NCBI GenBank assembly: GCA_964036045.1
Contig: OZ038383.1
Coordinates: 33,189,394-33,253,393, forward strand
Direction: 5' to 3'
DNA length: 64,000 nt
Source: Eutreptiella sp. 'Long Island Sound 2002'
Taxonomy: Eukaryota; Euglenozoa; Euglenophyceae; Eutreptiales; Eutreptiaceae
Below are positions 3,585-63,112 of the stretch, one piece after another (the first letter of the stretch is position 1; each line of letters starts with the position of its first letter). Made by a program: the position numbers and the translations under genes. The notes under the pieces are model-generated. The model did not search any database, was not told where the DNA came from, and was given only the letters and a program-made list of their open reading frames with translations.

Positions 3585-3823
3585 TGTAACTACGAAGCCA
3601 AGAGAAATTCGCCAACTTGCTTTGGAATGCAGCCAAATCATGGCAGGTGTCTGTTATGCTGCTACACTGGCTACCTAGGGATTTTTTTCCTCCTTTTTGG
3701 TGTAAATGGAAACTTTTTACCCTGAAAACCCCGGGTTTCATGCCCCTCTCGTGCTGAAAACACTCCGACACGGTAAAAAAGTCTCAAAGTTGGCTTCCCG
3801 GACCTAGGCTCGCGCAAATTCAC

Positions 3824-3901
3824 AAGTTGGCGCGCCAAGTCGCAAGTTGGCGCGCGCCAACTCCCGAGTTGGCGCGCCAAGTCCGGACTTGGCGCGCGCC
3901 A
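3824..3901. repeat. Family D palindrome array, beyond the transposase 3' end
   Basis: Several alternating copies of TTGGCGCGCCAA and TTGGCGCGCGCCAA (self-complementary) separated by 6 to 9 bases. It lies between the transposase stop and the left TIR of D1. Confidence 0.93.
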
Positions 3902-4139
3902 AATGTCCACCCCCCGATCCAACCATCGAGTTGCACACTATTGTTGTCACTGGAAATTCCGTCCCTCACCTGCCCTTGCACACTTGGCACGAAGAAAGCA
4001 TTGTTCCATCTTTTTTTGAGGAATGTGCAAAAGAATGTGTAAAACAATGTGCAAGAGATGTGCTTCCCGATGTAGTATACATTGTGGAGCCGTAGCTCAA
4101 AACTGGGGGCCATGGAGGCATATCAATCATATATAGAGG

Positions 4140-5965
4140 TCAGATGCCTTGGGACCCCTGTTCAGCCTGGACGAAGACCCCCTTATTCTCTATGTACCCC
4201 CTTTGCTTCGTCCACGGCGACTCCCAAACATAAAATTTTTTATTATACAACCCCCAGTCCAGATTATCTGAGCGGGTCACTTCCCCCCACCCCTTCCGCG
4301 TGCGATCCCCCTTGCCCCCCTTCACCCGCACTTTGGCCCCCCGCAGTCTGGACACCCGGCCGCCTTTACTTCCACCTCGAAAGCTGCGCTTGGAAATTTC
4401 ACATTTAAGGGCTTTGTGCCGCCCCTCTCCTTTGAAGGCGGCAAAAATGGCAATGTGCCCCCACCTGCGGGCCCATCCCAACAGGTGGTCAATCCACAGA
4501 TGGGCCCACAGGGTGACGTTCATTTCACACGCCTTATGGGCCTCCCCCATTTTTTCAATTCTGTTCGCAGAACTTTCATGTCGGGCCACCGCAACGGTCC
4601 ACATTTCCAGACGACATCGCTTGTTGCCAACAGGGATTTTCCCCATTGCCGGAAGGCGTGTGTCCAGGACACCTGGACCCCCCCCATGTCAACGACATGC
4701 TGCAAGAGGCCCTCCCCCTCCAGATCGTCACACATGGTGTCCCATCCCTCACTCTTCACCCACTCTGCAGCCGTCTGCTCGATTTTCAGGGGCACCTTCT
4801 TCTTATCCTTCCTCTCGTCTTCCAACGACACACCGGCGGCGGTCCGTGCCTGGATCCGAATGGGATCCAAGAACCATTGCACCCACCTGACGCCTTTCCC
4901 CTCTTCCACCGATGCACCGTGTGGAGGCTGTTCACGAGGGCTGAAAGCCCATTGTGCACTTGCCGGTGCACGCCATGCAGCCCATAATCGGGGGGCCGCT
5001 AGGGGGGGCGCACGATGGGGCATATCATCCCTGCCCACAGCCACTCCTCGACAATCACCCCCATCCCGCAACCAAATTCGCGCAGAATGGTTGCCCGATT
5101 TTTCCCACACCGCCAACAAACAGTGGCTGCGGGGTTTTTGGCTGTGAACGAGGAGCAACCCCCCAAAATGACCTGTGCCTTGGTGTCTGCTATAAAAAAA
5201 GAAATCACCTTACGCAGGTAGCCCCCTTTATCGGGTATTTGCTGCTGCGCCACCTCGATGAGGTCCGCGTTTAGGTCATAGACCTCGGCCAATTGGGTAA
5301 TGATGGCCTTCTTCTCGGATCCGCGCAGCAAGATCCAAGAGCCCAAGGGCATATGACTCCCCAGGTCTCCAACGGCAAAATGCACGAAGGAGGCCTGCCA
5401 GAGCTTGATCCCGTCGAAGGAGATGCCCACCCACACGTTGTCCGTCAGGAACGTGGGGCCGTCACGGTGCCACATCACCTGTGCCAGAAAACAGGCCGTG
5501 TGTAACGGGTCACCGTGAACGGTCGCCGGGAAACGCTTTGGTGCAGAGTGAAAATACCTGCAATTTCTGCCACAGATTGCATGCGGCCACAAAAATGTCA
5601 TTGTCCTCTTCATCGTCCTTCTGAAAATGGACCTCCGTGACACGGGGGGCGGACAATGCCTTTCGCACCTGCATCAGGGTTCCCCATGGGCACTTCCATT
5701 GGCTGTGGGCCCGGCTGTACTGCAGTTTGCAGAAGCTGTCGCCATTTTTGCGGCTCTCCCACAGAATGGCCGCGGCCAACAGCTCCAAATCGGGGATGGG
5801 GGGGTTGCCCTCCCCGCAAACGAGGTGGATGTGGCGGCGGGCGGGTTTGACGTGTACTTGCCAATGTGGCCCCGAAATCTCCCCCACGACTTCGCGAAGG
5901 CGCGCCAGCCGCGCGCGCCTGTCGCGGTAGTTTGAGGGCGCCAGCTGCTCAAAGGCCCGCTGCAT
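4140..5965 (-). pseudogene. Family D DDE-type transposase, frameshifted
   Basis: The protein is spread over three minus-strand frames. The N-terminal part starts at ATG 5965 (MQRAFEQLAP) and matches the G1 transposase N-terminus. The frame then changes near 5550. The middle contains ISFDG (first acidic residue, codon 5413-5415), FFIADTKAQVILGG (second, about 5185-5187) and CWRCGKN, a CxxC that follows the second D as in RNase H-fold transposases with zinc-binding inserts. The last part contains FKGEGRHKALK with the candidate catalytic E at 4425-4427. Pairwise similarity to the G1 transposase supports every segment. At least two or three frameshifts mean this copy is dead. The superfamily was not identified. 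Confidence 0.72.
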
Positions 5966-6019
5966 GGTGCACAAACAAAGACCTGCGGCACGTGAGGACG
6001 TGGCAGGCGGTTGACGCAC

Positions 6020-6241
6020 GTTGGCACACAGTTGGCACACAGTTGGCGCGCAGTTGGCGCGCGCCAACTCAGGACTTGGTGCGCGCCAACTCGTCAGTTG
6101 GCGGGCACCAAGTCCTGAGTTGGCGCGCGCCAAGTCGTGAGTTGGCGCGCCAACTTCTCATTTGGCGCGCGCCAACTCCCCTGTTGGCGCGCGCCAAATC
6201 AGAAGTTGGCGCGCCAACTTACCACTTGGCGCGCGCCAAGT
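6020..6241. repeat. Family D palindrome array between coiled-coil gene and transposase
   Basis: About ten copies of TTGGCGCGCGCCAA or TTGGCGCGCCAA and decayed versions (TTGGCACACA). They fill the spacer from the transposase start to the stop of the upstream gene at 6247. Confidence 0.93.
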
Positions 6242-6246
6242 GCTGC

Positions 6247-7480
6247 TCATTTCCGCGACCGCTTGCTGCCCTGACTCCCCTCGCCCTCTTCCGCCCGCCT
6301 GCGCTTGGGGTCAAGCAGGTGCGCAACCGGGTGCTTGTCCAGCAGGCCCTTGAGGTCCGTGAGGGTGGCCTCTTTGACCCCCATGTTGATGGCCACATGG
6401 CGTTGCGCGCTGAGTGCAGAGTGCAACTCAACCGCCGCAGCCTGCACGTACATCACATGGTCGGGGTCGGTGCCACCCTCTGCCCCCCCCCCAACTGCAC
6501 GCACCTGCGCCGTGGCGGTCAGCTGCTGCTGCAACTCCACCCTCTGCTTTTCCCACCCCTTCTCCCGCCGCTCGCATGCGGCGCGCTCGCCGGTGAGCGC
6601 CTTCTGCGCCGTCTTGCGGGCGGCCTCCGCCGCCTTCAGCTGCTCGCGCAGCAGCTTGTTCTCCGCCTCCAGGCGGAGAATCTCCGCCTCCAAGCGGAGA
6701 ATCCCCGCCTTCTCCCATGCCCCCCCCCCGTCTCCCGCTGCCTTCGCAGCCTGTGCTGCCTCCTGGGGGGTGGTCATGGGGCGAGGGCGCCTGGAGCCCC
6801 TGGCCTGCTGCTCCGTGCGGCCCTTGCTCTGCAGGGAGGGGTCCCAAGACGCGTCGGATCCGGCCCTACCCCCCCTTCTTCCCCTTCGGCCCTCTCCCCA
6901 CGAGCTGCTTCTGGAAGCGGAGGAGAAACGCCTGCGCTGCCTCCTTCAAGTGGGGGGCAGGGGCAATGGCCCGCACGTCGCTCCACTCGCACTGCTTCCA
7001 CCTGTGCAGCTGTACCAGAGCGTCAATGCTGTAGAGGAGGAGCCGGTTGTGCGTGGAGGGGGGGCGCACCTGCACAAATGGCACAACTGTGACAACCCGT
7101 GGTTGCACCCCTGCCTTCCCCTGCACCACTGCCCCGAACGGGTACTCCACCACCCTATTCGGTCCGGACCCGCGCCGAATTAACTGCGCCTGGAACAGGC
7201 GGCCGATCCTCGTCCCCCCTCAATCGATGACGTCCACCGCCGTCGCCTCGGCGGACGTCACCTTCAAAAACTTATCGGGGTTGTGCAAGTCGTCCCCGAA
7301 GTCTGCCGGTTCCGGGACCTCCGGAACTTCCCAATCCACCTCCACGTCCACATCCACGTCCAACTCCTGCTGCGCCTGCCGCTGCTCGTGCGGCTGCCCC
7401 TCCAGCTGCTCCGCTGCGGCCGACACGGGCACTGGACGCGGGTCCACTTCCAATTGAAAAATGGCGTAGTGGATTGGGAC
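6247..7480 (-). pseudogene. D1 long gene, 3' exon with basic C-terminal coiled coil
   Basis: The exon begins at 7480 right after a minus-strand TTTGCAG acceptor and reads VPIHYAIFQLEVD, matching the VPFFAWSPDI exon start of the G family. A D/V/E-rich linker follows, then an in-frame TGA (7220-7222), then a domain (RIGRLFQAQLI...) and a C-terminal part with LRLEAEILRLEAENKLL and other heptads, ending in a K/R-rich tail at 6247. The coiled coil and basic tail suggest oligomerisation and nucleic-acid contact. It is the downstream part of the dioxygenase gene that starts at 38493. The TGA and further frame changes make it a pseudogene. Confidence 0.62.
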
Positions 7481-7859
7481 CTGCAAATACGCAAGATCAC
7501 ATTGAACAAGCATTGAACAATGCACACAACGACACCAATGCGACAACCAAGACAACACAAAAACCAGCCACACAATTTCCGATAAAACCCAACCAATTAA
7601 ATTGAAGCGCCAAAACTGGACTTGGAACGCGCCAACTAGTTACTTGGCGCGCCAAAACTGGACTTGGCGCGCGCCAACTGGTCACTTGGCGCGCCAACTT
7701 GTCACTCCGCGCGCGCCAACCGATGAGTTGGCGCGCGCCAAGATGGAAATTGGCGCGCGCCAACTGCGAAGTTGGCGCGCCAATCTGGTATTTGGCGCGC
7801 ACCCAATGCGTGAGAAGGGTGACAAAATCGCGTGCATGCAAGGCACGGCGCGGGCACAC
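7481..7859 (-). other. D1 intron with family D array (7607-7803)
   Basis: On the minus strand the upstream exon ends CSCGEK, followed by the donor GTGTGCCC; the acceptor is TTTGCAG before VPIHYAIF. The intron position is the same as in the G family (CPCECK, donor GTGTGC, then VPF). Within it 7607-7803 is an array of TTGGCGCGCCAA/TTGGCGCGCGCCAA. Confidence 0.68.
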
Positions 7860-8030
7860 CTTCTCGCCGCAGGAGCAGATGGTGCGGCGTGCCTTGTCCA
7901 CGCGGACGAGGCCCAACATCTCGGCGTCCTGGGAGCTCAGGGGCGGCGTGAAGTGGGCCATTGCCATCCAGGCCATGCGGGCGGCCCCTGGCTCCCGCAC
8001 GAACGCGGCGCCCAGCGCAACGAACGAGTA
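7860..8030 (-). pseudogene. D1 long gene, exon segment ending in C-x-C, split by G1
   Basis: Minus-strand reading SFVALGAAFVREPG... ends CSCGEK at 7860. It continues the ORF that stops at 34959 on the far side of G1 (...CRVRCTAGTVV). This short domain, ending in C-x-C plus a splice donor, is shared with G (CPCECK), Z (CPCHQ) and F (CACQQ). No named domain was recognised. Confidence 0.6.
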
Positions 8031-8482
8031 TGAACCCTTCGTGAACGGCCGTTAAGTGGCCGTTTGAATAATTGCGTGAATTTCACGTGAATCTACCCAA
8101 ATTTTGAGGTTTTTGGGGAAAAATGCCGTATTCTTGGTTCATTCCGAGGGCTTTGAGGGACCAAAATTCCTCCCCTAGCTTTGTTACGCATCATCCAATG
8201 AAATTCCCGCCCCAAAAACATCCATCATGTCCGAACCGTGCCCAAAACGAGAGGTGCCGGAACCCGGCAAGCCTGTAGCCAATTCACAGCCGTGAATTCA
8301 CGTGAATTCGTACGAAATTCGCACCAATTTCGCACGAATTTCGTACGAATTTCACGTGAATTCACGTGATTTTACACAAATGTTACCGGTGTGCACCCCC
8401 TGATTTGTCCTCACACCCCTAGTAGGCCCCCCAGCATGCACCCCGGTCACAGGCAACAATGGTCTGGGTTCGTAACATGATC
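8031..8482 (-). other. G1 left terminus with array, transposase 3' flank
   Basis: About 430 bp matches 52710-53149 of G3 in reverse, marking this as one of the two distinct family G termini. Bases 8293-8370 hold TTCGTACGAA, AATTCACGTGAATT and related palindromes. No gene is present. Confidence 0.8.
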
Positions 8483-8530
8483 TCATGTCCGTCTCTTGCG
8501 GCACCGGAACCGCCGCTGTAGAGTCTGAAG
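8483..8530 (-). pseudogene. G1 transposase, last codons cut off by C2
   Basis: If C2 and one TGAAG copy are removed, the minus-strand ORF continues from ...DMQHLQ into TLQRRFRCRKRRT and stops with TGA at 8483-8485. The arginine-rich tail is a normal-looking protein end, so the join supports the C2 boundaries to the base. Confidence 0.75.
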
Positions 8531-8956
8531 CTTAGGCGTCACAAGTTGCCCACCCCCCACCTGGCGCTAGGGCCACGGAAGTCCATGTTGTAATGAGGGG
8601 AAAAGTACGTGAAAAGGGGTGTTATTTTTTGGGTATCCAAACCCCCCTGGTGGCAACATGCAAAAACAAGGTGTGTATTTCAAATATATGCCATTATTTG
8701 CATTTCTGGAAACACACAGATTTTCAAAATAAAGACATTCAATCACCAAAATATAGTGTTGTTTTACATTTAGACCACTGATTTCCAGTGTGTGTGGGGG
8801 GGGGGGGGCTGCCTATTTTTCTCTCCCCTTTGTTCGAGGTTGATCACAGAACCCCCCTATACACCACAGATGAGGGAACCCCAAACATACCTTTCATTGA
8901 AGCACACAGAAAACTATCCCAAAGCATGTACTTGTATTTCCTATTTTAACCAACCT

Positions 8957-9276
8957 GGCCGAAATGTCGGCCAGCTCTTCGAAAAATGTCCAAACACATG
9001 GTCCTATTTGATAGACAGGCCTAAGCTGGCCGAAATTTCGGCCAAGTCCATCGAAACTCCGAATATGATCACTCAAATGGGTACCTAAGACAGTAGACAT
9101 GAGCAAGGAACACGGGAGCAGTGACATTTGAACAGGGTGTGCAACATAATATACTCAATTACAAGCAAATACTTGCCACCTGACGAATCAAAGCAGACTT
9201 TTGCAGTGCCTATGGGGAAACACAATACTAAAAGGCTGAAGAGGCTGAGGACTGCATGCTGGCCGAAATTTCGGCC
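8957..9276. repeat. Three family C palindromes downstream of orf3 in C2
   Basis: Cores at 8957-8972 (one mismatch), 9028-9043 and 9261-9276, between the orf3 stop and the left TIR. Confidence 0.93.
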
Positions 9277-9317
9277 AGACTTCATACTGACAGGCAATAT
9301 AAGCAGCAGGACAGGCA

Positions 9318-11163
9318 TTAGCGCTTGCGCAGACCAGATGCACGGGGCTTCTTAGCACCTGTGTTAGCAGAAGGCTTGGCAGGGGCTGCAGCACCAGGCT
9401 TGGCAGTGGCAGAGTTCTGTGCCTGTGTGTTTCCACCCTGGGATGGTGAAAAATGATGCACAAAAGTATTCATACCTTTGCCAGTAGGGGCAACAGTGCC
9501 TGAGGAGGAAGCTGGGGTGGCCTGGGCGCACTGCGTGCCACTGGGTGAGGGGGCAAGGGCAGTTTTGGGTTTCTTCTTTGGAGTCTGTGTCTCTGGTTGC
9601 GACTCTGCCTCCCCATCTTGCTCCTCAGGATCCTCATCTACATACCTAACCCCAGAACAATCCACAGGAAAACCTGCCCCCAATAATGGTACACATCCTC
9701 CCATGACTTGGGGGGGCACGTGCCGGCGTTGGTGATACCTGCTGTGATGAGCTGAACAAAGTCATTGGGCACAACAGTCTCCTCACCCAAAAGGGCACAC
9801 ACAACATTACAGTCCTTGGAAAACCTGGTAGACATCATGCTTGCAAAATACACAGACAGAGTCCCCAGCAAAAACCAGTTGCCTACCCGTTCTGGGACCG
9901 GAACCAGGCTCAAAAGAAATGAGAATATTTCAACGGGCATCACAGACGACATGGGTCCTTCAGTAAAAGCCACGTAACGGGGCAGTCTGTTATCAAAGGC
10001 AGTGGCAGAACAAATGGAAACCAGATGGGACGTAGAAGTGTACAGCGGGGTCTTGCTTGACAAATTGTAAAGTGCAACATCACATTGATACATATCCTCA
10101 GCCACAGTGGCCTTCAAAGCAGCAACAGTGGCTTTCACATCAGCAGACTCACCCGCAATGAACACAGGCACACCGGACAAAAGCAGCTGCGCAACCAGGT
10201 TATGCAAACCAGCTGTATAGAGGCGGGGCACCTCAATGACACAAGCAGCTAAGGGCAGTGAACTAATGATACTGGGAACAGGGACTCCACAACGCATTGC
10301 CATCAGTTCCACACGGCCTGACTCTGCAATAAGTTTGCCTGTGCTTGACTCAACGAGGGACTCCCTAGCACACTGGATACTGACCAGACCAGTGTCAGAT
10401 TTTTCACAAACAGGCTTAGCAACAGGCTTCTGCAACGATCCCCGCAACCCCTCATATTTGGGTTCCTTCCAAAGAGGGGCCTCAATTACTGCTGACCACG
10501 GGGGCCAGGGGTTTTCTTCAGTCCAGGTCCAATTGCCATAGGCTGCCTTCAGGTGTGATGCAATAGCGCACTGCCTTTTGGCCATCTCGATAGTACCAAG
10601 TGTAGCTGCAGACAGGTGGTGTCACAGGGTGGGCTCCTATTGTGCATTAATTGAACGACACACAAGCTGGCCGAAATTTCGGCCAGGTCGGTCGATTTAT
10701 TCGAATACAAACCCCTGTTTGACCAAAACATACCTCTGGTGTTGTTCACAAGCCCATTGGTAACCGCCTCGGGATGAAGAATGTGCCAGGACCACATCTG
10801 GGCCTTTTTAACATCTTTTATAATTTTTTTGAGACCAGGTAGGGTACTTTTTGTCCCATCCATGTAACCTACGATGTCGCGAAGTCGGTCAGGCGTGATG
10901 CCTTCCACTTCCTTGAACGCAGCCAGTGCGGGATGTAGTCCACGCTTTTCCATGGCTGCCATGGCGTCTACTGAAGGAAGACCCACAAATTTCACCAAAC
11001 GCCCAACGCCACCCCACCGTTTGGCAACAGCACTCTGCACAGGAGAACATGTGGAACACAGAAGCTGGCCGAAATTTCGGCCGGGTCGATCGACAAAACC
11101 GAATTAATAAACGAAACACACCACAGTGCCTTCCTCGGCAGTAACACCACACTCTTCAAGCAT
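9318..11163 (-). pseudogene. Family C orf3 in C2, three exons, frameshifted
   Basis: Proposed exons are 11163-11122 (MLEECGVTAEEGTV), 11034-10734 (SAVAKRWGG... to ...VNNTR) and 10605-9318. Donors GTGTGT and GTATGT and acceptors GTGCAG and CTGCAG keep the frame across both joins. Each intron contains one 20-bp palindrome (11067-11082 and 10669-10684). The large exon encodes about 420 residues with a hydrophobic centre and an acidic then K/P/A-rich tail ending SGLRKR. A 1-nt loss near 9683, compared with C3, shifts the frame before the tail. No domain was recognised. Start choice rests on splice phase and the in-frame ATG. Confidence 0.65.
10669..11082. repeat. Two family C palindromes inside the orf3 introns
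   Basis: Cores at 10669-10684 and 11067-11082, each in the predicted intron and not in exon sequence. Confidence 0.9.
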
Positions 11164-11178
11164 AACAGTAATGTGATG

Positions 11179-11904
11179 CTACAGGGTGTACTCATTGGCA
11201 TCCTCATCCTCAAGCCTGTCCAGGAGTAGGGACATTCGCTCCGATGTGGTGGATGCCGAGCCAGCAGTGGTCTGGATTTGATGTAAGCCTGCAAGCCGGC
11301 GCCTAGTCCGCAGGGGGCAGTCCTGTTTGACTTCATAACCACCAAATACCAGGGTCCAATCCGGAGTCTCCATATTTTTCATCTCAAATTCAGTCTTGTG
11401 TTTTTGGGCAGCAGTGTAAACATGCTGACCCCCCAACAGAACCCAGCGAGTGGCTGTGCAACAGGAAAATTCGCAACAGCAGGGTCGAAAATTCAGACGG
11501 GAAAACGGTGCTATCGAGAAGAATACCACAACACACATACGAGTGACTTTATAAAAAAGAAGATCCTGGATGTAATCCACAGGCGGGGCTGCCTTCAGAT
11601 CGTTGTAGCGGCGTTGCACGCGATCATCCGAAATCCTATGGACCTGCCCAAATTTTCGTTCGTGGTCAATAATAATCTGATCCCACCGAACCTTTATTTT
11701 CGTCGTTGACGTAACCCAGTCGGATAACTTGACGGAGGATGATGAATTTTTCTTTGGTGCGGCCTTAGGCTTCTTTTGAAGTCCCTCTGTGCTCGCCTGG
11801 TCCTCTTGAGACTGGGATTGCACTTGAGATTGCCCATTGTCAGCTGCAGGCTCACCATCTGGCGAAACAACCATGTCCTGCGATACCCCTCCAGGCTCAG
11901 TCAT
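11179..11904 (-). CDS. Family C orf2 in C2, possibly spliced
   Basis: Open from ATG 11904 (MTEPGG) to TAG 11181-11179, 241 residues if unspliced. The N-terminal third is Q/S-rich with a PKKNSSSS patch; the end is acidic (LEDEDANEYTL). A stretch about 11440-11545 is cysteine-rich and poorly protein-like. In C3 a run of C near 23236 is one base longer, which would break the frame unless that part is intron, so a minus-strand intron ending GGGGTCAG is likely; exact splice sites are ambiguous. The function is unknown. It lies between orf1 and orf3, and its stop is only 16 bases before the orf3 ATG. Confidence 0.6.
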   Translation of the reverse strand: MTEPGGVSQDMVVSPDGEPAADNGQSQVQSQSQEDQASTEGLQKKPKAAPKKNSSSSVKLSDWVTSTTKIKVRWDQIIIDHERKFGQVHRISDDRVQRRYNDLKAAPPVDYIQDLLFYKVTRMCVVVFFSIAPFSRLNFRPCCCEFSCCTATRWVLLGGQHVYTAAQKHKTEFEMKNMETPDWTLVFGGYEVKQDCPLRTRRRLAGLHQIQTTAGSASTTSERMSLLLDRLEDEDANEYTL

Positions 11905-12025
11905 AAAATAAAGGGCTACACGGCAACATTTCATGAGGGGGAGAGTTCCCAGATAGCAAATAACAAGCACAGATCAACCAAAAAAGGACCAAAACCGACT
12001 GCCTGACAGGAAATTCGGATAACGT

Positions 12026-12180
12026 GGCCGAAATTTCGGCCAGCACTGCTCTGCATGTCAAACCACTGTGTACAAATACCATTCTGAGAGGCTGGCCGAA
12101 ATTTCGGCCAGAACCTTAAGTCATTTGTGTTCTGGGGGTAGCCATATGACAAAACAACAAGTCTGGCCGAAATTTCGGCC
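12026..12180. repeat. Three family C palindromes between orf2 and orf1 in C2
   Basis: Cores at 12026-12041, 12094-12109 and 12165-12180, the same relative positions as 486-640 in C1. Confidence 0.95.
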
Positions 12181-12191
12181 AGAAAAACATG

Positions 12192-13090
12192 AAACAGCAA
12201 ATGGACACACCAAAATCACTGGCAATGTGTGGCAGAACCCATACCACAGTGACAAACACAGCTGCAAACAGAAATCAGTCCCAGTCCTGGGTATCCACAC
12301 CGATGTGTTCCGCCTCATCTAGGGCTTCAAAGGAGGCAACGCTGTCTGTGGAGTGTCCCACAGTAAGGGGGTCAGATACCAGCTTGATCCTACTAGTTTT
12401 GCCCGACTTTTGCCCCCCTTTTGGTTTAGATACAATGTGATGTGGGTCAAAATGCATTCGTCACACCCAAATTGAGGGGGTATAGGGAGTGAGACACCAT
12501 CGCCCACAAAAAGTGCTCCATAGTAAGGGGGGCTCACATAAGGATACCTTACTATGCACCCCCTTACTGTGGGACACCCCATGCATCACAATCAATATCC
12601 TGGTCACTATCACAAGAGTCGACAGCAATGGAATCATCAGGGGCGGGGGGGGGGTACTGGGCGGGGGGGGCCGGGGGGGGTACTGGGGGGCCTCTGGCTC
12701 GGGGCTTCGGGGGTGGCTTTGGGGGCAAGGCAATTCCACCAGGAGCAGCAGCAGCAAATAGACCCACCAAAATCATTGGCAATGCGTGGCAAAACCCATA
12801 CCACAATGACAAACACAGCTGCAAACAGATTTCAGTTCCAGTCCTGGGTATCCACACCGATGTGTTCCGCCTCATCTAGGGCTTCAAAGGAGGCAACGCT
12901 GTCTGCATCACAATCAATATCCCGGTCACTATCACAAGAGTCGACAGCAATGGAATCATCAAGGGCGGGGGGGGGGGGTACTGGGCGAGGGGGGGGGGGC
13001 GGGGGGGGGGGTACTGGGGGGGCTCTCGCTCGGGGCTTCGGGGGTGGCTTTGGGGGCAAGGCAATTCCACCAGGTGCAGCGGCAGCAGCA
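12192..13090. repeat. Partial tandem duplication at the orf1 3' end of C2
   Basis: A block 12192-12348 recurs at 12755-12903 and a block 12582-12754 recurs at 12904-13080. The first pair carries the MITE and resembles C3; the second lacks it and resembles C1. This looks like a join between a C3-like and a C1-like element. Confidence 0.8.
12349..12581 (+). mobile_element. Family M MITE, 233 bp
   Basis: Ends are TGGAGTGTCCCACAGTAAGG and, in reverse, TGGGGTGTCCCACAGTAAGG. The flanks are TG (12347-12348 and 12582-12583); the uninserted site in C1 near 806 has a single TG. There is no coding capacity. Confidence 0.92.
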
Positions 13091-15051
13091 GCAGGCGGTG
13101 CACGGTTGGCAGCGCGAATAGAAGCATGTGCAGTACGCAACACCCCTTGCTCGGCAGCAGTGCGGGCAGGTGCATTTGTTTGTAAAAAATCCTCAACACC
13201 CTCAGGAACCCTGGTACGCGCAACCAGATTTTGCATTGCATGCAACAGAACCACTTTTAAACGGTCTGTGGTGATTCGTGTGCTAGACATGGTACCGGGG
13301 AACGTCAAATCCTCAACTGCATCCAGTCTTCTCACCTCAACTTTGTAGTCCGGAACGGGAACACAAATGGGCAGGCTCTGTGTATGGGCTGTCAAGATGA
13401 ATTGTTTAAGATTGGCACAGAACATTGCCACGGATCTCTCAGTCAGCACACCACGCAAAACTTTCTCTCCCGGTTGGACAGGGGGAAGTGTCAGAAATAA
13501 ATCAGACGACTGTTGGACACTAGTAAAGGCAGTGTTGCGGCGACAGTGGGCTGAGAACCGACTCAGAAGTGCCTGACCCAGCTCCTCAGAGTGGATACAC
13601 CCTAGGGAGGCGGAATGCCACTGACTCCAAAACAAAAGAGCAACAGCGGTGGTTTTCACATACTCCGTGGTTAACTGTTCCTCGGGCTTTAGGATGTTCA
13701 GCATGAGCAGTAGGGACATCTCAAGTGCCTGCTTAGCTACAATACCGGAACCTGCCCCCCGTCCCTCCCAGTTGCACTCACGAACCAAAGTCCCAATGCT
13801 GAAAGCAGCTGGACAGTATGTGTACAGCAAAGCCTTAAGGGCTAATAACATACGCAAACCCTTGCGCCGAATGGGTGTCAAGTCCCGCTGGCTATTGAGC
13901 AGGGAAGTGACGCGGTCATCTAGTTTGCCTCTATAGGACGATGTGGCTAGCATGAGTCCAAGCAACGTCTTCTCCATATGGATGACCTTGACCTTGCGAG
14001 GGAGGATAGACCCAACCTGAAGGCTGTTCCCCTGCTCCAAAAACTTAATGAACGGGAGGAACGCCCTGTAGATCAATTCAACGCAATACTTATAGCTATG
14101 CCATACTCCGTACACCAAAGGAAAACCCAACAGTAATTGTGGTACATTCCAGGGAACATAAGCAGCACCATAACACAGCTTAAGTAGGGCAAAGTGTATT
14201 TTCATGTCCACAAGCAGCGGAACACAGTGTCTGGTGCGGTGTTCCACACATGACAAATCAACCACGGGTTGCAAAAGCTCTTTGGGTGTGCCGGAGCGGA
14301 GCTCAGACGGGAAAAAGGGTCTCCAGTTGAGGGAACGAACATTTTTTCTGGCAATATCCAAAGGAGCACGAACCCAAACTCTCTGAATACCTTGGTTGGC
14401 AACATCAATACGATCAAACCATGCTCTATGTGAGCGAAAGATGTCATCAGCAACCTTTGGTACCGTGGCCTCAATTTCGGCCAGCTCCGGCAGACCCCGG
14501 TATGCAGGTACGGCAGTAGTGTGCAAAACAGCAACAGCTGTACAGTTTAGGGTTAAGTCGGGTGAATGGGGATCAGCTCCCGACCTGTAACGCCTCAGGT
14601 TATCAAACCATATACAAACTTGCCTACGGTGCATGGTGTTCCACAAGTTGTGTGCTGCTAGTCCAGCACGATGGTGAATGGACTCCTGCTTAGTGTTACA
14701 CCGACCAAGGACTCCTACCTTACGGCGTTGGCGGCAGGACATAATACCCCAGTTGTAACCAGACCCACAATTAGAGTATGGGAGGGCCATACGGCGCAGC
14801 AGGCAGTATAGGGCATGGAACTGTGACAAAAATGTCATGTACCATCGTGAGGGCTTCTTCTCAGTGGCGGCAGCCTTCAACTGTGTCAGGGAGTGCCGGC
14901 TCCTGCGATTCTGCCGCAACAGGAGGCAGAATTGCAAAAGCTTTTGCAGAGTCCCACCACGTAATGCATTTCGCAACAGCCCTTTGGCTGTAGTAGCAAA
15001 AGAACCAGTAACTGCAGCATGTACAACATTGACAGTAATAGCAGAAGACAT
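12832..15051 (-). CDS. Family C orf1, open 739-residue protein, candidate transposase
   Basis: The ATG at 15051 opens an uninterrupted ORF to a stop at 12832. An N-terminal hydrophobic/basic part is followed by a region with NTKQESIHHRAG, then WFDNLRRYRSG, which may hold an acidic catalytic residue, then LLVDMKIHFALLK and a VWHSYKY block, then a helical region, a proline/glycine tract encoded by long C/G homopolymers, and an acidic tail (DSCDSDRDIDCD). No family could be named from the sequence. Reasons to suspect a transposase are its size, conservation in three copies, and the lack of any other candidate in an element with TIRs and target duplications. The G tract near 12966 is prone to slippage and differs between copies. 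Confidence 0.7.
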   Translation of the reverse strand: MSSAITVNVVHAAVTGSFATTAKGLLRNALRGGTLQKLLQFCLLLRQNRRSRHSLTQLKAAATEKKPSRWYMTFLSQFHALYCLLRRMALPYSNCGSGYNWGIMSCRQRRKVGVLGRCNTKQESIHHRAGLAAHNLWNTMHRRQVCIWFDNLRRYRSGADPHSPDLTLNCTAVAVLHTTAVPAYRGLPELAEIEATVPKVADDIFRSHRAWFDRIDVANQGIQRVWVRAPLDIARKNVRSLNWRPFFPSELRSGTPKELLQPVVDLSCVEHRTRHCVPLLVDMKIHFALLKLCYGAAYVPWNVPQLLLGFPLVYGVWHSYKYCVELIYRAFLPFIKFLEQGNSLQVGSILPRKVKVIHMEKTLLGLMLATSSYRGKLDDRVTSLLNSQRDLTPIRRKGLRMLLALKALLYTYCPAAFSIGTLVRECNWEGRGAGSGIVAKQALEMSLLLMLNILKPEEQLTTEYVKTTAVALLFWSQWHSASLGCIHSEELGQALLSRFSAHCRRNTAFTSVQQSSDLFLTLPPVQPGEKVLRGVLTERSVAMFCANLKQFILTAHTQSLPICVPVPDYKVEVRRLDAVEDLTFPGTMSSTRITTDRLKVVLLHAMQNLVARTRVPEGVEDFLQTNAPARTAAEQGVLRTAHASIRAANRAPPAAAAAAPGGIALPPKPPPKPRARAPPVPPPPPPPPRPVPPPPALDDSIAVDSCDSDRDIDCDADSVASFEALDEAEHIGVDTQDWN

Positions 15052-15124
15052 TAATGCTGAGACAAGAAAACAGTTATGTAGGAGTGTATGGTGTAATACT
15101 CATGAACAACGACAATTGCAAGCT

Positions 15125-15422
15125 GGCCGAAATTTCGGCCAGGTGTGTTCAAAGGGGAAATAATTGCTTAAATGTTCAAAAATAGGAAAAGCTGGCCGAA
15201 ATTTCGGCCAGCCCGCCCGAAAACCAGAATATAAGTGCTTGAATAGTGAACAGACCAAAAAGCTGGCCGAAATTTCGGCCAGCCCTAAGAAAAATGAAAA
15301 TAACTATGCCTATTCACCAGGAAACCAAAAAGCTGGGCGAAATTTCGGCCAGAAGGGTCAAAAGCTGCATATACACATAGTTGTTTGCAATGTTACCCAA
15401 AACCTGGCCGAAATTTCGGCGA
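15125..15422. repeat. Five family C palindromes upstream of orf1 in C2
   Basis: Cores at 15125-15140, 15194-15209, 15265-15280, 15335-15350 (one mismatch) and 15407-15422 (one mismatch). Spacing near 70 bp is the same as in C1 and C3. Bases 15423-15628 are subterminal DNA without a gene. Confidence 0.95.
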
Positions 15423-15628
15423 GCTTCAGAAAAACGTCAAATACAACACACTAGGAGACGGGGATACACAAGGCTAACACATCAACACGTATTTCAACGG
15501 GTGTCACACAGCTCTGCCAACAACTTTGGTCACATACGTCAAATAACATACTCAAAGTAGAAATGTAGAATATTGTCAAATCGCGCGTATACGGGGTCCT
15601 AGAGGGTGGGCAACTTGTGACGCCTAAG

Positions 15629-17354
15629 TGAAGGTGCTGCATGTCGGGTAGAAGCTGTCTTCTTGTGCGGCTTGCATACCTTTGTACACTTATGGGCCCT
15701 TGCCCATGTTGAGCCCTTTTGGTCGCATCCCACCCATGCAACCAAAGGCTATCGTCAATGGTGTGGTTGTCCACAACCACTTGCACCCGTAGTCTCCCCC
15801 GGAGGAGGCTTAGGCCCCCGCTGTTCTGCAACATGCGCTTCAGCCTCCGGTGACTTCCCTCCATGGCAAAGCAGGAGAACTTTGACAAGATTCTCCACTT
15901 CTTTGCAAAATAATACATGTGGTCCATCCAAAGATGCCTCCACACAAGTTTGCCCCACTGGAGATCATTATGGGCAGCGCCCATGGCTATGCTATGGTTC
16001 CGGAGCCGCCCCAAGTCGGTGCCGGAGAACCATGCGGAACGCCACGCGTATACACACATGCTTGCAAAATTCTCCCGCCACGTTTTGCACACCGACTCCC
16101 AACTTTTTCCCCCTACTTGATGCTGCCTCACACTAGGCTGCTCTAGGCAAGCATCTTTTATCTTCTCCCAACCCCTATTCCGCATGAAATGGATGGCAGC
16201 AGCACACTCCATCCTCACCTTCCCCTTGCTGTTTGCCTTGTCATTATTTAATGAGGCACGTGTGCAAGTTCGTGCAGCAAGCCGTGCCTCATCTAGAACC
16301 GGTTGCAGCATGGTGCGTGCCACATTGGCCGGTGCCTTCCCTGTCAATTGTACAACTAGGTCCCGTGTCCCGTTGATTGCACACAACAGGACACGAAGGA
16401 CCCCATGGAGGCCATAATCAGGCACTCGCTTATCACTCGTAATGGTCCTATATATGGCATTTATGGCAACGGCCATTTCCCAGGTGCCGTCTATCGCACT
16501 TGGTGTGCCAAAGGTAGCAAGGCACAGAGCACGGTTACGCATGCAGACCCAACACACAGTGGCACCAGGGGATTCTGCCTTCCAGTTTTGGCAGCCCGCC
16601 ATGAGCACCTGTACTTTACCATCTGCACACAGAAAAAAAAGGGACTGCCTATCGTTCCCTCCCGTATCCTTAAAACTTACGGTTGCGGCCTTGCGCAACT
16701 CATCATCAAAATCAATTTCTTGGGAGGCCGCGTAGAGGGTCTCCCACTTTTCACTGCCCCCTAGTAGCCACCAACTAGATAGTTGGTTGGGGCTGGCGGT
16801 GCCACCAAGCGTGCAATGGACGTACAAGGCCTCATGCCTCGATAACCGTCCACCGCAATAGGCAACCAATGCAGCCGTCGGTCCCCGGGTTGCATGATGT
16901 CCGAGGGTGGGGGTGGTCGACACTTGAATAGGTGGCCAATGCGGTCAGGTAGGTAGCAGGCCGCACCATTGATGGCCGTGTCGTCCCCCGTATAGGCGGT
17001 GAACGCCCGGGACTCCGGCAACGCTAGCTGCCGAAGCGTGCCGTACACCTGGTCCCATACCACACCGTACGTCATGCTCCCCACTAGGTACCGGGACTCC
17101 GTCCTAGAGAGGTGCAAGAACCGGATCCTCCAGACGGCCATAATCAACCTCTCCGAATCCTCCTTGGTGGGCTCACGCTGGACGGTGGCTACAACTCTTC
17201 TTTCGGGGGTAAGCACTATTTGCCCCGTGTCGGGCAGGTATTTGACGGTGTAGGGTGCTGCAATCTCTTTGGTAACAACCTCCTGGAGCTCTTGTAGGCG
17301 CCGCCGTCGTGTACGATCCGCTAGCAGATGGAACGGGTCCTTGGGCCGCGGCAT
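15629..17354 (-). pseudogene. Family G DDE-type transposase, frameshifted and split by C2
   Basis: The ATG at 17354 (MPRPKDPFHLL) opens the N-terminal 175 residues. The first acidic residue is in IAVDG (16848-16850). Immediately after it the frame breaks: G2 has GGTACATCGAGG where this copy has GGTTATCGAGG. The next frame carries FFLCADGKVQVL (second D, 16621-16623), CWVC, a DYGLHGVLRVL helix, and FAMEGSHRRLK with candidate E at 15859-15861. The CxxC following the second D and an E in a G-S-H-R-R-L-K context are what RNase H-fold cut-and-paste transposases with an insert domain tend to show. The C-terminus continues at 8530 across C2. The superfamily was not identified. Confidence 0.75.
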
Positions 17355-48877: not shown

Positions 48878-48937
<60 letters not shown>

Positions 48938-56266: not shown

Positions 56267-58338
56267 TGTGTGGGTGCACCATGTGCCGGATGCGGACCGG
56301 GAAAAGGAGGCCGGTAACCGACGGATGTGGCCAGACCCCGTCAAGGGGAAACATTGGGAAGAGCGCATCAATACGGACACGCACATTTTTTCCGGGAGTC
56401 CAAATTTCAGGGCTGGTCGGCCTACGGAGCGATTCACTCCGTGGGTCGGCGCGAGACCTTAAAAGGACTGGCCATCCCTGATTTGACCCAGCCCACAATT
56501 TTTGTATTAATAACACAGGACGCATTTTTTGCGCTTGGCATGGGTTGTCCGTCGCCAGACATCGCAGTGAAATACCCTGTGTCTCGGCATCCGGTGCCGG
56601 ATCCGCGCTCTAGGACCCTCGAGGAGTATGAGGCCACAGGCTACCGTTTGTTGGAGGACGTCCTGCCACCGGACCCGTTGCATCAGTTGTGTGCCATGCA
56701 GTTTGAGGGAGAGGAGAATTGGGAAGACATTCTCCTTCAGGGCCGCAACAACAATGCAAAGAAAGATCCCTGCAATTGCCTGCGTGTTTGCTTGCACGCA
56801 TGGCTTGCATTGGACCGGGGATGTGGGTTTGTGTTTGGGTGTAAAGGGGGTGGTGGTGGTAAAAGCAAGCATTTACCTGGATTTTGCGTAGGTAAAAGGG
56901 GTATTTTGTGTCCCCAGTGAAAAAATACCTGGTAAGTAAAAAGGGCAATTTACGCACGCAAAAGGGCCCTTTTGCGCACGCAAAAATGAAGTAAGATACC
57001 TGAAGCATAGTACCAGGCCACAATTTTTTGAGTGAGGTGCAGCTCAAGAGTCTTTTGGATGAACTTGAGAGGGTGCCTCTCTCAGAGAAGGTAGCCATTT
57101 TCAATGAGAACCCCCCCATTGTGGGCAGGCCCCAAGATTCAGAGACCCGCCGCACAGTCTACGGCAACTATGGGGGCCGCAACCTCCACAAGCACAACCC
57201 CCACAAGCTCCACGATCTGCTGGTCCTCAAAAGGGTCGCAAAGCATGTGCTTGAGACTGCGAAGAAGAGTGTGGTGGGGGGGTGGGGTTGGGTGGAGCTG
57301 CACCATTCTTGACATGGCAGACTTTTCGTGCTATGACCACACCCCACAGCACCTCCATCGCGATGCCCCCCCCTACACTATGCCTGAAGGCACATTGATT
57401 GTGAATTGCCTCATTATGCTCACCCATAATCATGAGGCCGACGATGGGTCGCATTCTCTTTTTTTGCCCTCCAGCAGTTTGGGGTTCCCTGACCCTTGGG
57501 TGGACAGGGCTGTGCCATTCAAGAGGGGCACCGCCTTTTTTTTTTTTAATGCCCTTGATGTTCACCGGGGGTCGGGCATTCTGAAGGCCTCGCCCACTAG
57601 TGTGTCCCATCCTCGCCTCATGGCATTTTTTTCAATTGAGCTAACCCAAGGGCCTAACCTACGATTCCCAAACCTGCATGTCACCCAGTCCATCAAGCGG
57701 CCCCAGCTGGAGGCACCTGGTGGCCGGGTGGCCAAGACTGTCCCCTGCGAGGGGGCGGTTAAGTGTAGGGGGAAGGTTGTGGCCAAGTCCTACGGCTGCA
57801 AGCGGGCGGCTTTGCGCGCCGCACACAAAGATCTTTGTCTACCATGCCAGGAGGGGGAGGAGCAAGAGGGGGGGGAGGAGGAGGCGTTGTTGGAGGACCC
57901 CACTGGGGTTAGCATTGAGCAATGTGCTCAGTGCTTGCTCCCGGTGGGAACAACCACCAGGCATTTTTTGTTGTAGGCATGGGGGGATGGGAGGGAGGTG
58001 GTTGCCCCCCTCACTACTGAGGAGGTGGGGGGATCGCAGGCCACCCCGATGAGTGCCCCTTGGCCAAGGTGTGCCATGGGGAGGCACTGCCGTGGCCCAC
58101 CTTGCAAGGGTATGTTGGGATTAAGGTGCCGGCAGGCACCATTTTGGTGGTGAGGAAGGGAATGTATGGAGGAGTGGCAAGGGTCCCCCTTGAGCTCGAG
58201 GGGGTGGCCCAGGTGGTGGAGTGGAGGCAAGGTCAGGAGTATGCGGTCGTCACCGACTTCGTCTGGCTGCCGAGGATGAACCTGGTGCTAGGCGACCTGA
58301 AGAAGGAGGCGGGCAAAGGCATGTGCCCATGTCACCAG
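56267..58338 (+). pseudogene. Z2 dioxygenase gene, catalytic part to the C-x-C exon end
   Basis: The frame resumes with VHHVPDADREKEAGN, shifts near 56395, and gives FFALGMGCPSPDIAVKYP. A family Z repeat (56752-57030) interrupts or forms an intron. QLKSLLDELERVPL follows; after another shift QHLHRDAPPYTM gives the HxD iron site (57356-57364), GSHSLFLPSSS, then ALDVHRGSG and SHPRLMAFF with the distal H and the R (H-x13-R). A cysteine-rich region (VPCEGAVKCRGK, CLPCQEG, CAQCLLP) follows, then AGTILVVRKGMYGGVARV ending CPCHQ. It is the clearest full set of dioxygenase motifs in the window, but at least three frame changes make it inactive. Confidence 0.72.
56752..57030 (+). repeat. Family Z interspersed repeat with palindromes
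   Basis: It matches 39299-39580 of Z1 along about 275 bp and contains TTTACGCACGCAAAA and TTTTGCGCACGCAAAA at 56950-56990. Confidence 0.85.
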
Positions 58339-58985: not shown

Positions 58986-59388
58986 TGTACCCTTCGTGAA
59001 CCGGCCGTTTGAATCCGAGATTCACGGTACCGTGAATTTCACCTATTTTTGCTGTTTTTTTGCTCGTAACTTGGTGCCATTGTGTGCTTTTGTCGTGCTA
59101 TCTTCGCCCAAAGTAAGATCCAACAAATGTGTGCAATTTAGAGGTTTGAAGTAGTCGCATGGTTCAAAACATTTGGTGAGATTCGCGTGAATGTGAAATT
59201 CACGCACCCAAATTCACGCATAAATTCACGCTAGATTCACACATTCAAGAGAATGCGAAATTCGTAGGAATTTCGTACGAATTCATACGAATTTCGTACG
59301 AATTCGTATCAATTTCGTACGAATTTCCCCTCATTTCCACTGTTTCGCTTTCCCACAGCTCTCAAAGCCTTCGCATTCTCTTTAGGTC
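58986..59388 (+). other. G2 terminus with array
   Basis: Right-type G terminus, then AATTCGTACGAATT-like units at 59257-59330 ending about 60 bp before the ATG. A TTTAG at 59385 could be a 3' splice site. Confidence 0.82.
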
Positions 59389-61284
59389 ATGTCTCAGCAG
59401 ACTATGTCCCAGCTCGCCAGCCTGGCCTCGCGCCCCGACCCCGCAGCCGACACCCTCGCCCACTACCAAGCCCTCCCCGTCGCCCACCATCAACTGGAGG
59501 AGGCGGCGTACCTGTCAGGGGCATTGGGGGTGGATGATGTTGTGGCCTGGGCAGCATCCCTGGACCCCTCCCCCGAGGTCATCCACATCGACATGCGCAA
59601 CCCCACCCGCAACTCCTACCTCGGGGGGAGGGGCCACAACCTTGTGGAGGGAACTGCACCGCCAACTCCCCTCCCTTAAATTTCTGCATCTAACCCCTCT
59701 CCCTTCCAGTGTTGACCACCTCCTCAATTCCATGCGCACTAACCCTGTGGGGAAGCCTAAGGACGCCCACGTCCAGGTGTACCCCACCACTAACCTCGTC
59801 CATACCCCCCCCCACTGCGACATGGTGTGCCTGCAGGATCTTGCCGCAGATGCACCAGCAGACCATTCTTTTTCCCCTTCTCTTGGCACCTTGCCAACCC
59901 CCGGTGGTGGGATGATTTGGGCATCGCCGCTTTCCATTCCACCATCCCCCCTCAGGTGCACATCCCCGACATCACCCACCCCACCTTCTACAACACAACT
60001 TCTTTGCAATGGTACCGTGGTGCCTCAATGGCCCCCCCCTTCATTTGGAGTGAACCCGCACCGAACCCCTTCCCGACCCCCCTCATGGGGTGATGGGCAA
60101 CCCCGACCCCGCCCCCGACAGGGTTGGTCCCTCCCAGCTGCCCCTCAACTTTGTTGATGGGAACGGCTACATTGTGCTTCGGGGGCTTGTGGAAGCACGG
60201 GATTGTGAGGTGGGGTGGAACAAGGTGATGAAGGCGTGGGGCAGCGGCGACGAAAAAGTCGTTGCAAAAAACTTTGAGCTCCTTTTCAACGCCGCGCGGA
60301 GTGAAGATGAGGCCAAGGATCCTGAGCTCCCCCTGCGTACGTACTTGGGGTCGGGGGTTCGGGGGCCTCTCTTCAAGAAGTTCCACCCCCACCTCACCGA
60401 AAGTGTCCCTGGGGTTGGGGACCTCCACCCAATGACGCCGGGCAGCGTCATCGTGGCGAATGTGGGGAGTGGGCCGCAGCTCCCCCACACCGATGTCGGC
60501 ACCGACCCCGAGGTGCTCCCCCCCAAAAGCAGGGACATCTCGGGGTGCCACCTGAGTAGCTTCCTCTGCTTGTCAGAGGACTACCAGGTGGCGGTGCAGG
60601 CGGGGACGGCCCTGGGGGAAGCGGGGGGGGCGCGCTGGGACACCGTTGAGCTGCAGCGGGGGGACATGCTGCTGATGGTGGCCACCAGCCGCCACCATGG
60701 GTTGCCTGCCCTCCCCGAATCCAAGGATGGGCTGCAGGGGGCTCTCTTTCACTTGTGGACCCCCGATCGCGCACACAAACACCACCAGCCCAACACCACA
60801 CACCTGGACCCCCCCCCCCCCAAGGAGGCCCTGGAGGTTGCTAGGGATTTGTCCAGCTGGGACTTCCCCTCCAATGGACCAGGTGTTGTGGGTGGGGAAG
60901 GGGGCGGTTGGGAGGGTCGGGTTGTGGGAGGGGGATGCTGTCTAGGCCCTCTTCGCCGACCCCCCCGAGTCGGTCCCGGCAGGCCCCCCCACCTGCCCCT
61001 TCCACCCCACCTTCCTCTCCCAGTCGGCCCCGGCCTCCGACCTCGCCGTCATCGAGGTCGGCGAGCAGTGCATGCTGTTCTTCGTGGGTAGCGTGCACCA
61101 GCTAGAGGTGTGCAAGTGGGACAATGCCGATGCGGAGTCGGAGATCCACTTCGCCATGACCGGCATTGCCCCCCCGGAGCGGCCAATCACACTGTGGCAT
61201 CTGGCGAACACGGCCCCAGCGTGGCGGTCACCCAAGTGCGCGGAGACCGGGGCATGGTCCATCACATGCCCATGTGAGTGCAAG
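59389..61284 (+). pseudogene. G2 dioxygenase gene, 5' exons to CPCECK
   Basis: ATG 59389 opens MSQQTMSQLASLASRP. A 5-bp deletion near 59634 relative to G1 shifts the frame; other shifts occur near 59870 and 60090. FFPFSWHLANPRWWDDLG and FVDGNGYIVLRGLVEARD lead into the fold; QLPHTDVG holds HxD (60486-60494), and RGDMLLMVATSRHHGLPAL holds the distal H with GALFHLW after it. The usual R is not obvious. IEVGEQCMLFFVGSVHQLEV ends CPCECK at 61284. N-terminal acidic residues and lack of a signal peptide suggest a nucleocytoplasmic protein. Confidence 0.7.
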
Positions 61285-61552
61285 GTGTGCTTGCTTGTGT
61301 GTTTGCTTTGTTTATTGGCAAATTGGACGAAATTCACGTGAAATTCGTACGAAATTCGTACGACTTTCGTACCAATTTCACGTGAATAAATTTGTGTGAA
61401 TATTCTGGAAATTTGAAACTCGCACAAAATTCGTATGTATTTCGTACGAATTTCTGTGAATTTCGTCCAATTTGTTCCCTTTGTTGTTGCATTGCCTCAT
61501 GTCAACTCCCCGTTTCTCAATTTGTGCCTTGCACACTTCCCCACATCTGCAG
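61285..61552 (+). other. G2 intron with family G array (61330-61470)
   Basis: Donor GTGTGC at 61285, acceptor CTGCAG ending 61552. The interior has TTCGTACGAA units and AATTCACGTGAAATT. It keeps phase: K then VPFFAW. Confidence 0.85.
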
Positions 61553-63112
61553 GTCCCGTTCTTCGCGTGGTCGCCGGATATTCGGCACCACACCAAGCGC
61601 AAGTACAAGCCCCGGCCCCGATTGCCCGAGGAGCACGGCGAGCCGCCCGGAGGCACCGGTGGCGACCGGCCCGTAGGCACCGGTGGTGGACGGCCCCCGA
61701 GCGATGCCAGCAGTGTGCACAGTGAGGGCTCGCGGCGCTCTGGACGTTCGGCAGGCACCGGCAGCGAGGCCAGCACCGCCGCGGCGCATGTGGCGCGCGA
61801 GGTGGTGGTGCCCATGCCGTCCCGCAACGACTTGGGCGAATCCCACACCGACCCCCCCCCCTTGGACCGGGTCACCCTGGCCGCCAGGCAGCCCGATCCG
61901 GGCTGGACCCAGCAGGTGCCGCCCGGGCCCGATGGGCGGCACGGGCATCCCTCTGCCGTGTGGGACATGTTCCTGGAGTCCCGGGGGGTGCAGGGCACCT
62001 TCCGCATCTCTTTCCCCTGCCCCATTGTGGTCAGGGGGGGGCCCAAATTGCCCGCGGGGCATGAGCTGGTGGGCCTGTTTGCCTACAGGCTTGTGAGTGG
62101 GCACTGGCGGGTGCAGACCGGGGTGTCACTGATTGGGGAGGAGGGGACGGTGACCACGGCTGGGGTCTTTGGTCTGAATGTGGTCACGGGTTGGGACCAG
62201 CGGAGGCCGGAGTGGGCGGACGTGGCATGGCTTGCCATGCACGTCCATGTGGGGAGGCAGCGGAAGATGGGGGTGGCTGACGTCATTGACGCCGAGGAGC
62301 AGGACGAACCCCCCACCCGCAAGCGGAAAGGCCGCCCCCAAGGGGACACGGAGCCCCCCCCCCCCCCCCCCAAAGCCCCGCGTACGGCCACCCCGGCGGA
62401 GCAGGCGGTGCGGGCGGAGTAGGCGGAGCCGGTGGCAGGGCGGGGGCAAAGGGGGGTGGTGCACGAGTGGGTGGAGCAGCAGCGGGCGGGGGCGTGGGAG
62501 GCGCGCGCGACGAGCGCGGAGGCCGCCAACCGCGACCTCGAGGCCCGTCTGTCCAGGGCCAACGAGGACAGGCGGGACGCCAAGTCGCGGTTGGCGGACG
62601 TCACCAAGGAGCGTGACCGGCTGGCCGCCAAGGTGAAAACTTTGGAGCGCGACCTGGCGACGACGCGCAAGGCAAAGCGAGCGGCACAGGCAGCACAGAC
62701 AGTGGAGAGGCGTGAGGGTGCCGAGGCCCCCCCGGGTGACAGGGGGGGGGGGGGCAGTGCCGCCGGTGTCGGGTACCTCCTGGCCGGCGCACAGGCGTGG
62801 CATGCCCAGGCCGAGGCGTGTGCCGGCCAGATGTTGGCGATGTCCACCGGCCTGCGGATGGCCATGATGGCCAGTGGCCAGCAGGCCGATGTGGACAGCG
62901 TGGCCCCCGACGCCCCCAAGGTGAGTGCCGCACTGGAGGAAGTGCGCCGGCAGTACCCCCCCCACCGCCTCACGTCGGCGGCCATTGACCCCTCCTTTGT
63001 GGAGGCAGTGGGGGAGCAGAGCTCCCAGGGCTCCACTAGCCGGAGCTCTGCTCCAGGTGGGGGGGGGGTGCGTAGCTCACCCTTTAACCTCGGGACCACC
63101 TGTCCCTTCTAA
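61553..63112 (+). pseudogene. G2 long gene, 3' exon with coiled coil, one stop
   Basis: Reads VPFFAWSPDIRHHTKRKYKP, a low-complexity linker, GTFRISFPCPIVVRGG, TGWDQRRPEWADVAWLAM, then TRKRKGRPQGD, a likely nuclear signal. TAG at 62420-62422 (CAG in G1) interrupts it just before the coiled coil VHEWVEQQRAGAWEAR to RLADVTKERDRLAAKV. The end is serine/glycine-rich at 63112. A TAG next to the coiled coil would remove a presumed dimerisation segment. Confidence 0.72.

Follow-up and report, generated by a model that had tools for sequence, protein, structure and literature searches.

Candidate CMCT-clade transposon families of Eutreptiella that also carry a 2-oxoglutarate oxygenase-like gene

Genes for 2-oxoglutarate (2OG) dioxygenases are carried by DNA transposons of fungi, among them KDZ elements with TET/JBP enzymes, and a RAG1-like transposase has recently been reported in combination with a 2OG dioxygenase in rust fungi (PMC12730594). 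According to the same paper, elements of the CMCT clade (CACTA, Transib, RAG1) produce target-site duplications (TSDs) of 2 to 5 bp, carry C(2)C and H(3-4)H between the second D and the E of the transposase, and have CA..TG termini "in most cases". Here we describe three nested elements (D, Z and F), pieces of a G family and an F-like gene in a 64,000-nucleotide window from Eutreptiella sp. 'Long Island Sound 2002' (GCA_964036045.1, contig OZ038383.1, positions 33,189,394 to 33,253,393). At about an even balance of probability, these are related CMCT-clade families that also encode a 2OG-Fe(II) oxygenase-like protein that continues into a C-x-C domain, joined in D, Z and G by a coiled coil, and that is predicted to counteract the silencing of its own element.

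By transposase type, class of accessory enzyme and 2-bp TSD, the closest described system is ESTA, which differs in TSD sequence (TA in ESTA; Z also has CA, TC and TG), in the extra modules found here and, to judge by profiles, in enzyme family. Like the elements described here, the rust-fungal system pairs a RAG1-like transposase of the CMCT type, carrying C(2)C and H(3-4)H, with an element-encoded 2OG dioxygenase and a 2-bp TSD; its enzyme and element ends are different. D, Z and F start with TG and end with CA, in contrast to the CMCT majority; PlavakaA resembles Z in its 5'-TGT..ACA-3' termini, 2-bp TSDs and CMCT motifs, whereas the Z transposase has no Pfam match above cut-off, and the TET-positive Plavaka elements are PlavakaB, with other termini (PMC12730594). 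Transib and RAG1-RAG2 share the zinc-binding C2/H2 residues, an E 20 residues past the last H and a second element-encoded protein, and a model of the transposase (predicted local distance difference test, pLDDT, 58.7) was structurally aligned to RAG1 and HzTransib; they differ in a 5-bp TSD, given for one copy, and in a partner, RAG2, that is no oxygenase (PMC4411706). Giant EnSpm/CACTA elements in algae also join a CMCT-clade transposase to extra genes outside fungi, but a word search of the paper's text finds no dioxygenase named (PMC12477816). Fungal KDZ elements have the 2OG dioxygenase gene in common and differ in transposase class, in TSD length and in their TET/JBP enzyme, for which no profile match is found here. 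Among the titles and abstract openings listed in literature searches that mostly exclude subscription journals, no such element outside fungi appears. If our reading is true, 2OG oxygenases would be tied to DNA transposons beyond the fungal TET/JBP cases, in another enzyme family and host, and the RAG1 clade would gain a high-copy lineage with numerous uninterrupted copies.

Nested elements and their transposases

Self-comparison and end analysis resolve the pieces of the window into a nest of bounded elements, with F inside Z copy A and Z copy A inside D (Table 1). F ends read TGGGGTGCGCCGCTGG.., and the uninterrupted counterpart of its site is found in Z copy B (CGCAAGTACAAGCCC) at 61604-61605, while the empty D site of Z copy A is reconstructed from its flanks and D relatives. 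A 2-bp TSD is present in six of seven Z copies (CA, TC and TG as well as TA) and in F. The D ends show no matching TSD (flanks TT and TC); its flanks are the two halves of a G-family transposase gene (LWVDHMWGIAREWGTL / AFSAFKGEGRH).

Transposases of the Z family, like relatives that are 43% identical, keep the three catalytic acidic residues D, D and E, which D and the G copy (the latter read in pieces) also have; only the E of this triad is seen in F. Between the second D and the E lie C(2)C and H(4)H (CWVC and HLWIDH in Z, both motifs in D, H(4)H in F, CWLC in the G copy), and 27 of the 29 members having EGxHR place the E 20 residues after H(4)H. A sequence-only reading of the window had put this E in a G/M-E-G-x-H-x-x-L-K context in D, G and Z, and EGxHxxLK does occur three times in six frames, at 4404(-) in D, 15838(-) in Z and 38936(+) in the G family; the E of F stands in PAEHRH, not EGxH. 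The D and Z transposases are homologous, with D matching P0122 161-335 at 38.6% (E 1.6e-24), and the F piece matches P0122 455-535 at 32.9% (E 9.6e-7). By these signature residues we assign the transposases to the CMCT clade and file them there, not with ESTA, KDZ or TET/JBP.

The same reading had suggested TET/JBP dioxygenases on KDZ transposons, with the caution that sequence similarity does not establish TET/JBP, and an HxD, H, R layout on a DNA transposon is indeed common to both. A KDZ transposase is rejected, since Pfam scans at thresholds of E<=1 and E<=5 contain no hit to a KDZ profile; the TSD is 2 bp, against 8 bp in Zisupton, and the signature is that of CMCT/RAG1. No TET/JBP match appears in Pfam at E<=10 for the F, F-like, D and Z proteins, in a search whose HMMER filters can lose weak matches and whose profiles distant TET/JBP members can escape (the PE type was recognised by HHpred). 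We consider the TET/JBP-on-KDZ proposal very improbable. Viral contigs, where records near this genome may be omitted, contain no relative of the transposase.

Segment 18873-32867 of Z copy A, with F inside it, is inverted relative to Z copy B, and the breakpoints fall within Z sequence. An unrelated element E is inserted in Z (8531-15628, 7.1 kb) and in F (20405-27024, 6.6 kb), and a third copy runs from L002 6386 to window position 3533; it has inverted repeats CTTAGGCGTCACAAGTTGCCCACC, 5-bp TSDs (TGAAG in Z, AAAAA in F), copies that are ~97-98% identical and four scanned open reading frames with no Pfam family above cut-off. The C-terminus of the Z copy A transposase resumes past it, at 8486-8527. 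A short inverted-repeat element with GTGTCCCACAGTAAGGGGGT ends occurs at 12346-12584, 18259-18497 and 37083-37321 (97-98% identical), the last copy truncating the end of the D HRD exon.

The oxygenase-like gene and its companion modules

The HxD motifs of D, F, Z and the F-like gene lie where the sequence-only reading had placed them; a C-x-C closes the small domain in all four genes, and each has an HxD..H iron triad. A later H with R, claimed for D, F and Z, stands in D and F, and also in the F-like gene; Z keeps the H and has Gln where the 2OG Arg is expected, as do 50 of the 59 relatives in which the search pattern located the place. The PhyH match of F rises from 13.3 bits (E 0.1) to 18.7 bits (E 0.0023) when the two exons are joined, and then covers HxD and the distal H/R; two uncharacterised Pfam families match F with similar E values (0.0025, 0.0049), so the profile evidence is modest. 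The F-like gene matches PhyH (E 0.027) and 2OG-FeII_Oxy_3 (E 0.057). In its motifs the enzyme resembles a 2OG-Fe(II) oxygenase in D, F and the F-like gene, and the last two also give profile matches of this kind below threshold.

Many PhyH-like and other 2OG enzymes act on proteins or small molecules. A genuine oxygenase acting here on a protein (a histone, a transcription factor or the transposase itself) or on a small molecule would fit the nearest profiles, which are PhyH and 2OG-FeII_Oxy_3 rather than TET/JBP, but residence in the element, the coil and the family-specific palindromes hint, indirectly, at a DNA-bound role, and we hold such a substrate to be possible but unlikely. AlkB belongs to the same superfamily as the 2OG-Fe(II) oxygenases, and repair had been offered in the sequence-only reading; no AlkB family is among the Pfam matches listed, however, and an AlkB-like enzyme repairing alkylation damage or transposition intermediates seems scarcely probable.

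Dioxygenase, coil and transposase follow one another on one strand in D, Z and G, and F has the order dioxygenase, C-x-C domain, transposase C-terminus, with no clear coil by eye and no D1/D2 transposase part found. Coils had been noted in D and G; by eye they are present in D, in the upstream G copy (frame 33180914-33182455) and also in Z (62525-62626 and 18705-18806). The genes are element-encoded as proposed, and their order is retained in 26 other genome copies of Z. D and Z agree in the order in which the C-x-C domain and the coil follow the enzyme domain. This would also suit a dioxygenase-like domain that is non-catalytic, at least in Z with its Gln, and that works within the transposition complex as a scaffold or binds DNA there, a role like that of RAG2 beside RAG1. 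This we find decidedly unlikely, given that HxD is retained in 75 of the 80 Z relatives in which the search pattern located the motif and that D, F and the F-like gene retain both H and R.

The Z gene is under purifying selection and Z has amplified recently. Between intact genome copies and the window copies, the ratio of non-synonymous to synonymous substitution rates (dN/dS) is 0.57-0.62 for the dioxygenase, 0.27-0.37 for its N-domain and 0.23-0.46 for the transposase; between window copies A and B it is 0.64, 0.35 and, for the transposase pieces, 0.33. Near-identical pairs of genome copies have too few changes for dN/dS, and one such pair exceeds 1. Fisher tests on five pairs give 5e-5 and 2e-5 for the N-domain, 0.002 for the transposase, and 0.014 and 0.077 for the dioxygenase.

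Family-specific palindromes and a predicted anti-silencing role

D, Z and F each have a palindrome of their own, and all three words contain a CpG (Table 1). The D and Z palindromes occupy the same four places, namely the 5' end, the spacer after C-x-C, the stretch before the transposase (behind the coil) and the 3' end; three of the four are seen in F. The Z word AATTCGTACGAA has 44 exact matches on both window strands against 0 expected, some of them outside Z copies (deletion derivatives, other repeats), and CCAGCGCTGGAA of F has 11 matches on both strands against 0.04 expected. We take the palindromes as putative binding sites.

In the mechanism we envisage, the transposase would cut at the TG-starting inverted repeats, and the oxygenase protein, dimerised via its coil, would bind its own family's palindromes at the four places. 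A silencing mark there would be removed or changed, allowing the family to be expressed and mobilised; the mark could lie on DNA, as a methylated base, or on protein, and we lean to DNA. The oxygenase-coil protein may in this way help the element to escape silencing, and we rate such self-addressed anti-silencing as the likeliest single account, argued from position and analogy. More doubtful is that the families form a RAG1-clade group outside the described lineages, which independently gained a non-TET (PhyH-like) oxygenase that, with its C-x-C and coil module, targets the element's own palindrome and erases silencing, with a new palindrome in each family. Family-specific palindromes at matching sites make the self-restriction of an anti-silencing enzyme testable in binding and methylation assays.

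A number of results weigh against the proposed anti-silencing transposon families. For the transposase, no match is found to Pfam transposase profiles or, by sequence profile, to PDB chains; hhalign of 15 transposases with RAG1 gives a probability of 0.04 and a score below the mean of 40 shuffles, and Foldseek on its own, with the transposase model (pLDDT as given above), returns nothing at E<=1e-3. For the enzyme, F (18.7 of 22 bits for PhyH) and the F-like gene (15.2 of 22 bits for PhyH, 14.8 of 27 bits for 2OG-FeII_Oxy_3) miss the curated Pfam cut-offs, the D and Z dioxygenase proteins have no 2OG Pfam match in the scan, and the sole dioxygenase structure model (pLDDT 31) was discarded as unusable, so that no dioxygenase fold was obtained. 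The Z Gln recurs in all 16 readable copies of the 24 sampled from the genome, profile comparison of the F-like protein with D or Z gives no match that would unite them in one enzyme family, and the dioxygenase dN/dS is only moderately below 1, with one of its two tests non-significant (p 0.077). Of the 24 full-length transposase copies sampled, seven have no visible dioxygenase within the sequence read around them, and the enzyme may therefore be dispensable in trans. Finally, CpG decay is weak, with C-to-T change at CpG 1.2-1.7 times that elsewhere, and gives the anti-silencing mechanism little help. 

No scanned element protein has a Pfam match above cut-off, PDB sequence searches with the transposase and dioxygenases give chance-like rows or none, and a PHROGs search with six proteins gives no match.

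Kinship between families and other features of the window

The family called G in the sequence-only reading is a composite, in which the 56396-56698 piece and the transposase at 38936 do belong to one family, whereas the HRD gene at 57004-57973 is F-like. The G copy lies mostly upstream of the window (C6:33178136-33186301, with the dioxygenase within C6:33178136-33179725 and the transposase at 33185433-33186301) and resumes at 3534-3584 and 38915-39193, all on the plus strand; its small-domain-like stretch reads SPCNEKV against CSCGEKV in D, so the C-x-C is not intact. The D and G dioxygenases are clearly related by sequence (45% in the distal part, E 1.3e-14; 24% in the N-terminal region, E 5.9e-19), and profile comparison of the D and Z dioxygenases aligns the linker motif only (probability 49). 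When joined pieces are aligned, the enzyme domains of the F-like gene and F share 29% identity, and in a neighbouring copy (C6:33175870-33174458) an F-like N-terminus is linked with a region that is 50% identical to the 57004-57973 gene. Their common layout suggests that the F-like and D/G/Z enzymes may share an ancestor. An 88% identical repeat lies behind the G transposase piece (39298-39570) and between the two G-region dioxygenase pieces (56750-57023).

Table 1. Coordinates of the elements, genes and palindromes in the window
Feature	Position	Strand	Remarks
D element	3585..38914	-	interrupted by nested elements; inverted repeats TGTAACTACGAAGCCAA at 3585-3601 and 38898-38914
D dioxygenase gene, N-terminal domain and HRD exon	37294..38493	-	HRD 37366-37374; 88.7% to P0204, cluster of 85 member sequences
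D dioxygenase piece with distal H and R	36280..36447	-	IHRGAGGPGR 36364-36402; 85.7% to P0251 183-238
D C-x-C (ICSCGEKVC), small-domain end	7854..7880	-	motif reading
D coiled coil	6604..6678	-	by eye, in open reading frame 6250-6945
D transposase	4143..5967	-	D1 5401-5421, D2 5173-5193, CWRC, H(4)H..20..E 4416-4502; first Met 5965
D palindrome TTGGCGCGCGCCAA	38585..38642 (5' site)		others 7664-7763, 6054-6239, 3847-3902; 13 exact copies vs 0 expected
Z copy A	8031..34958	-	inverted repeats TGTACCCTTCGTGAAC / TGAACCCTTCGTGAAC; TSD TA (8029-8030, 34959-34960); within D gene
Z copy A dioxygenase gene, frameshifted	32868..34573	-	tblastn with P0081, P0005
Z copy A transposase	15629..17354	-	D1 16845-16856, D2 16615-16632, H(4)H..20..E 15850-15936; 91-93% to P0122
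Z copy B	58986..64000	+	cut by window end; self-comparison, end analysis, translated search
Z copy B dioxygenase	from 59389 to C-x-C 61267-61290	+	HTD 60486-60494; coil 62525-62626
Z copy B transposase	matched from 63485	+	translated search
Z palindrome word AATTCGTACGAA	59272..59325 (5' site)		others 61342-61452, 63478-63489, 8305-8351
F element	19438..32027	-	inverted repeats TGGGGTGCGCCGCTGGAAGCGCTCCGC; TSD TA; sits in Z
F dioxygenase gene, N-terminal domain and HRD exon	30303..31654	-	HRD 30530-30538
F frame with distal H and R, cysteine cluster and C-x-C	27870..28745	-	H and R 28632-28685 (IHAGG..TPR); C-x-C 27870-27893; motif reading
F transposase C-terminal part	19900..20412	-	H(4)H..20..E 20068-20154; frame cut by element E at 20404
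F palindrome CCAGCGCTGG	27664..27764, 4 copies		others 31722-31735, 19740-19751; 6 palindromes in all
G-family transposase piece, second H of H(4)H	3534..3584	+	parted from its E by element D
G-family transposase piece with E (KGEGRHQSLK)	38915..39193	+	earlier parts at C6:33185433-33186301
G-family dioxygenase fragment (GMGCP region)	56318..56698	+	83% and 71% to G copy at C6:33178797-33179094
F-like dioxygenase gene	57004..57973	+	HRD 57356-57364; distal H and R 57557-57616 (VHRGSG..HPR); C-x-C 58318-58341

Elsewhere in the window, a eukaryotic large-subunit ribosomal RNA fragment (Rfam, 238 bits) lies at 48477-49029, and a repeat common with L001 extends into it. A Ty3-type retroelement-like piece with zinc-finger-like cysteines, judged by eye, occupies 45576-46430, and a dense array of diverged repeats, many of them spaced at multiples of ~26 bp, spans 39900-42900. 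At 49904-51046 a 281-bp unit is repeated four times in tandem, and the first three units are 99% identical.

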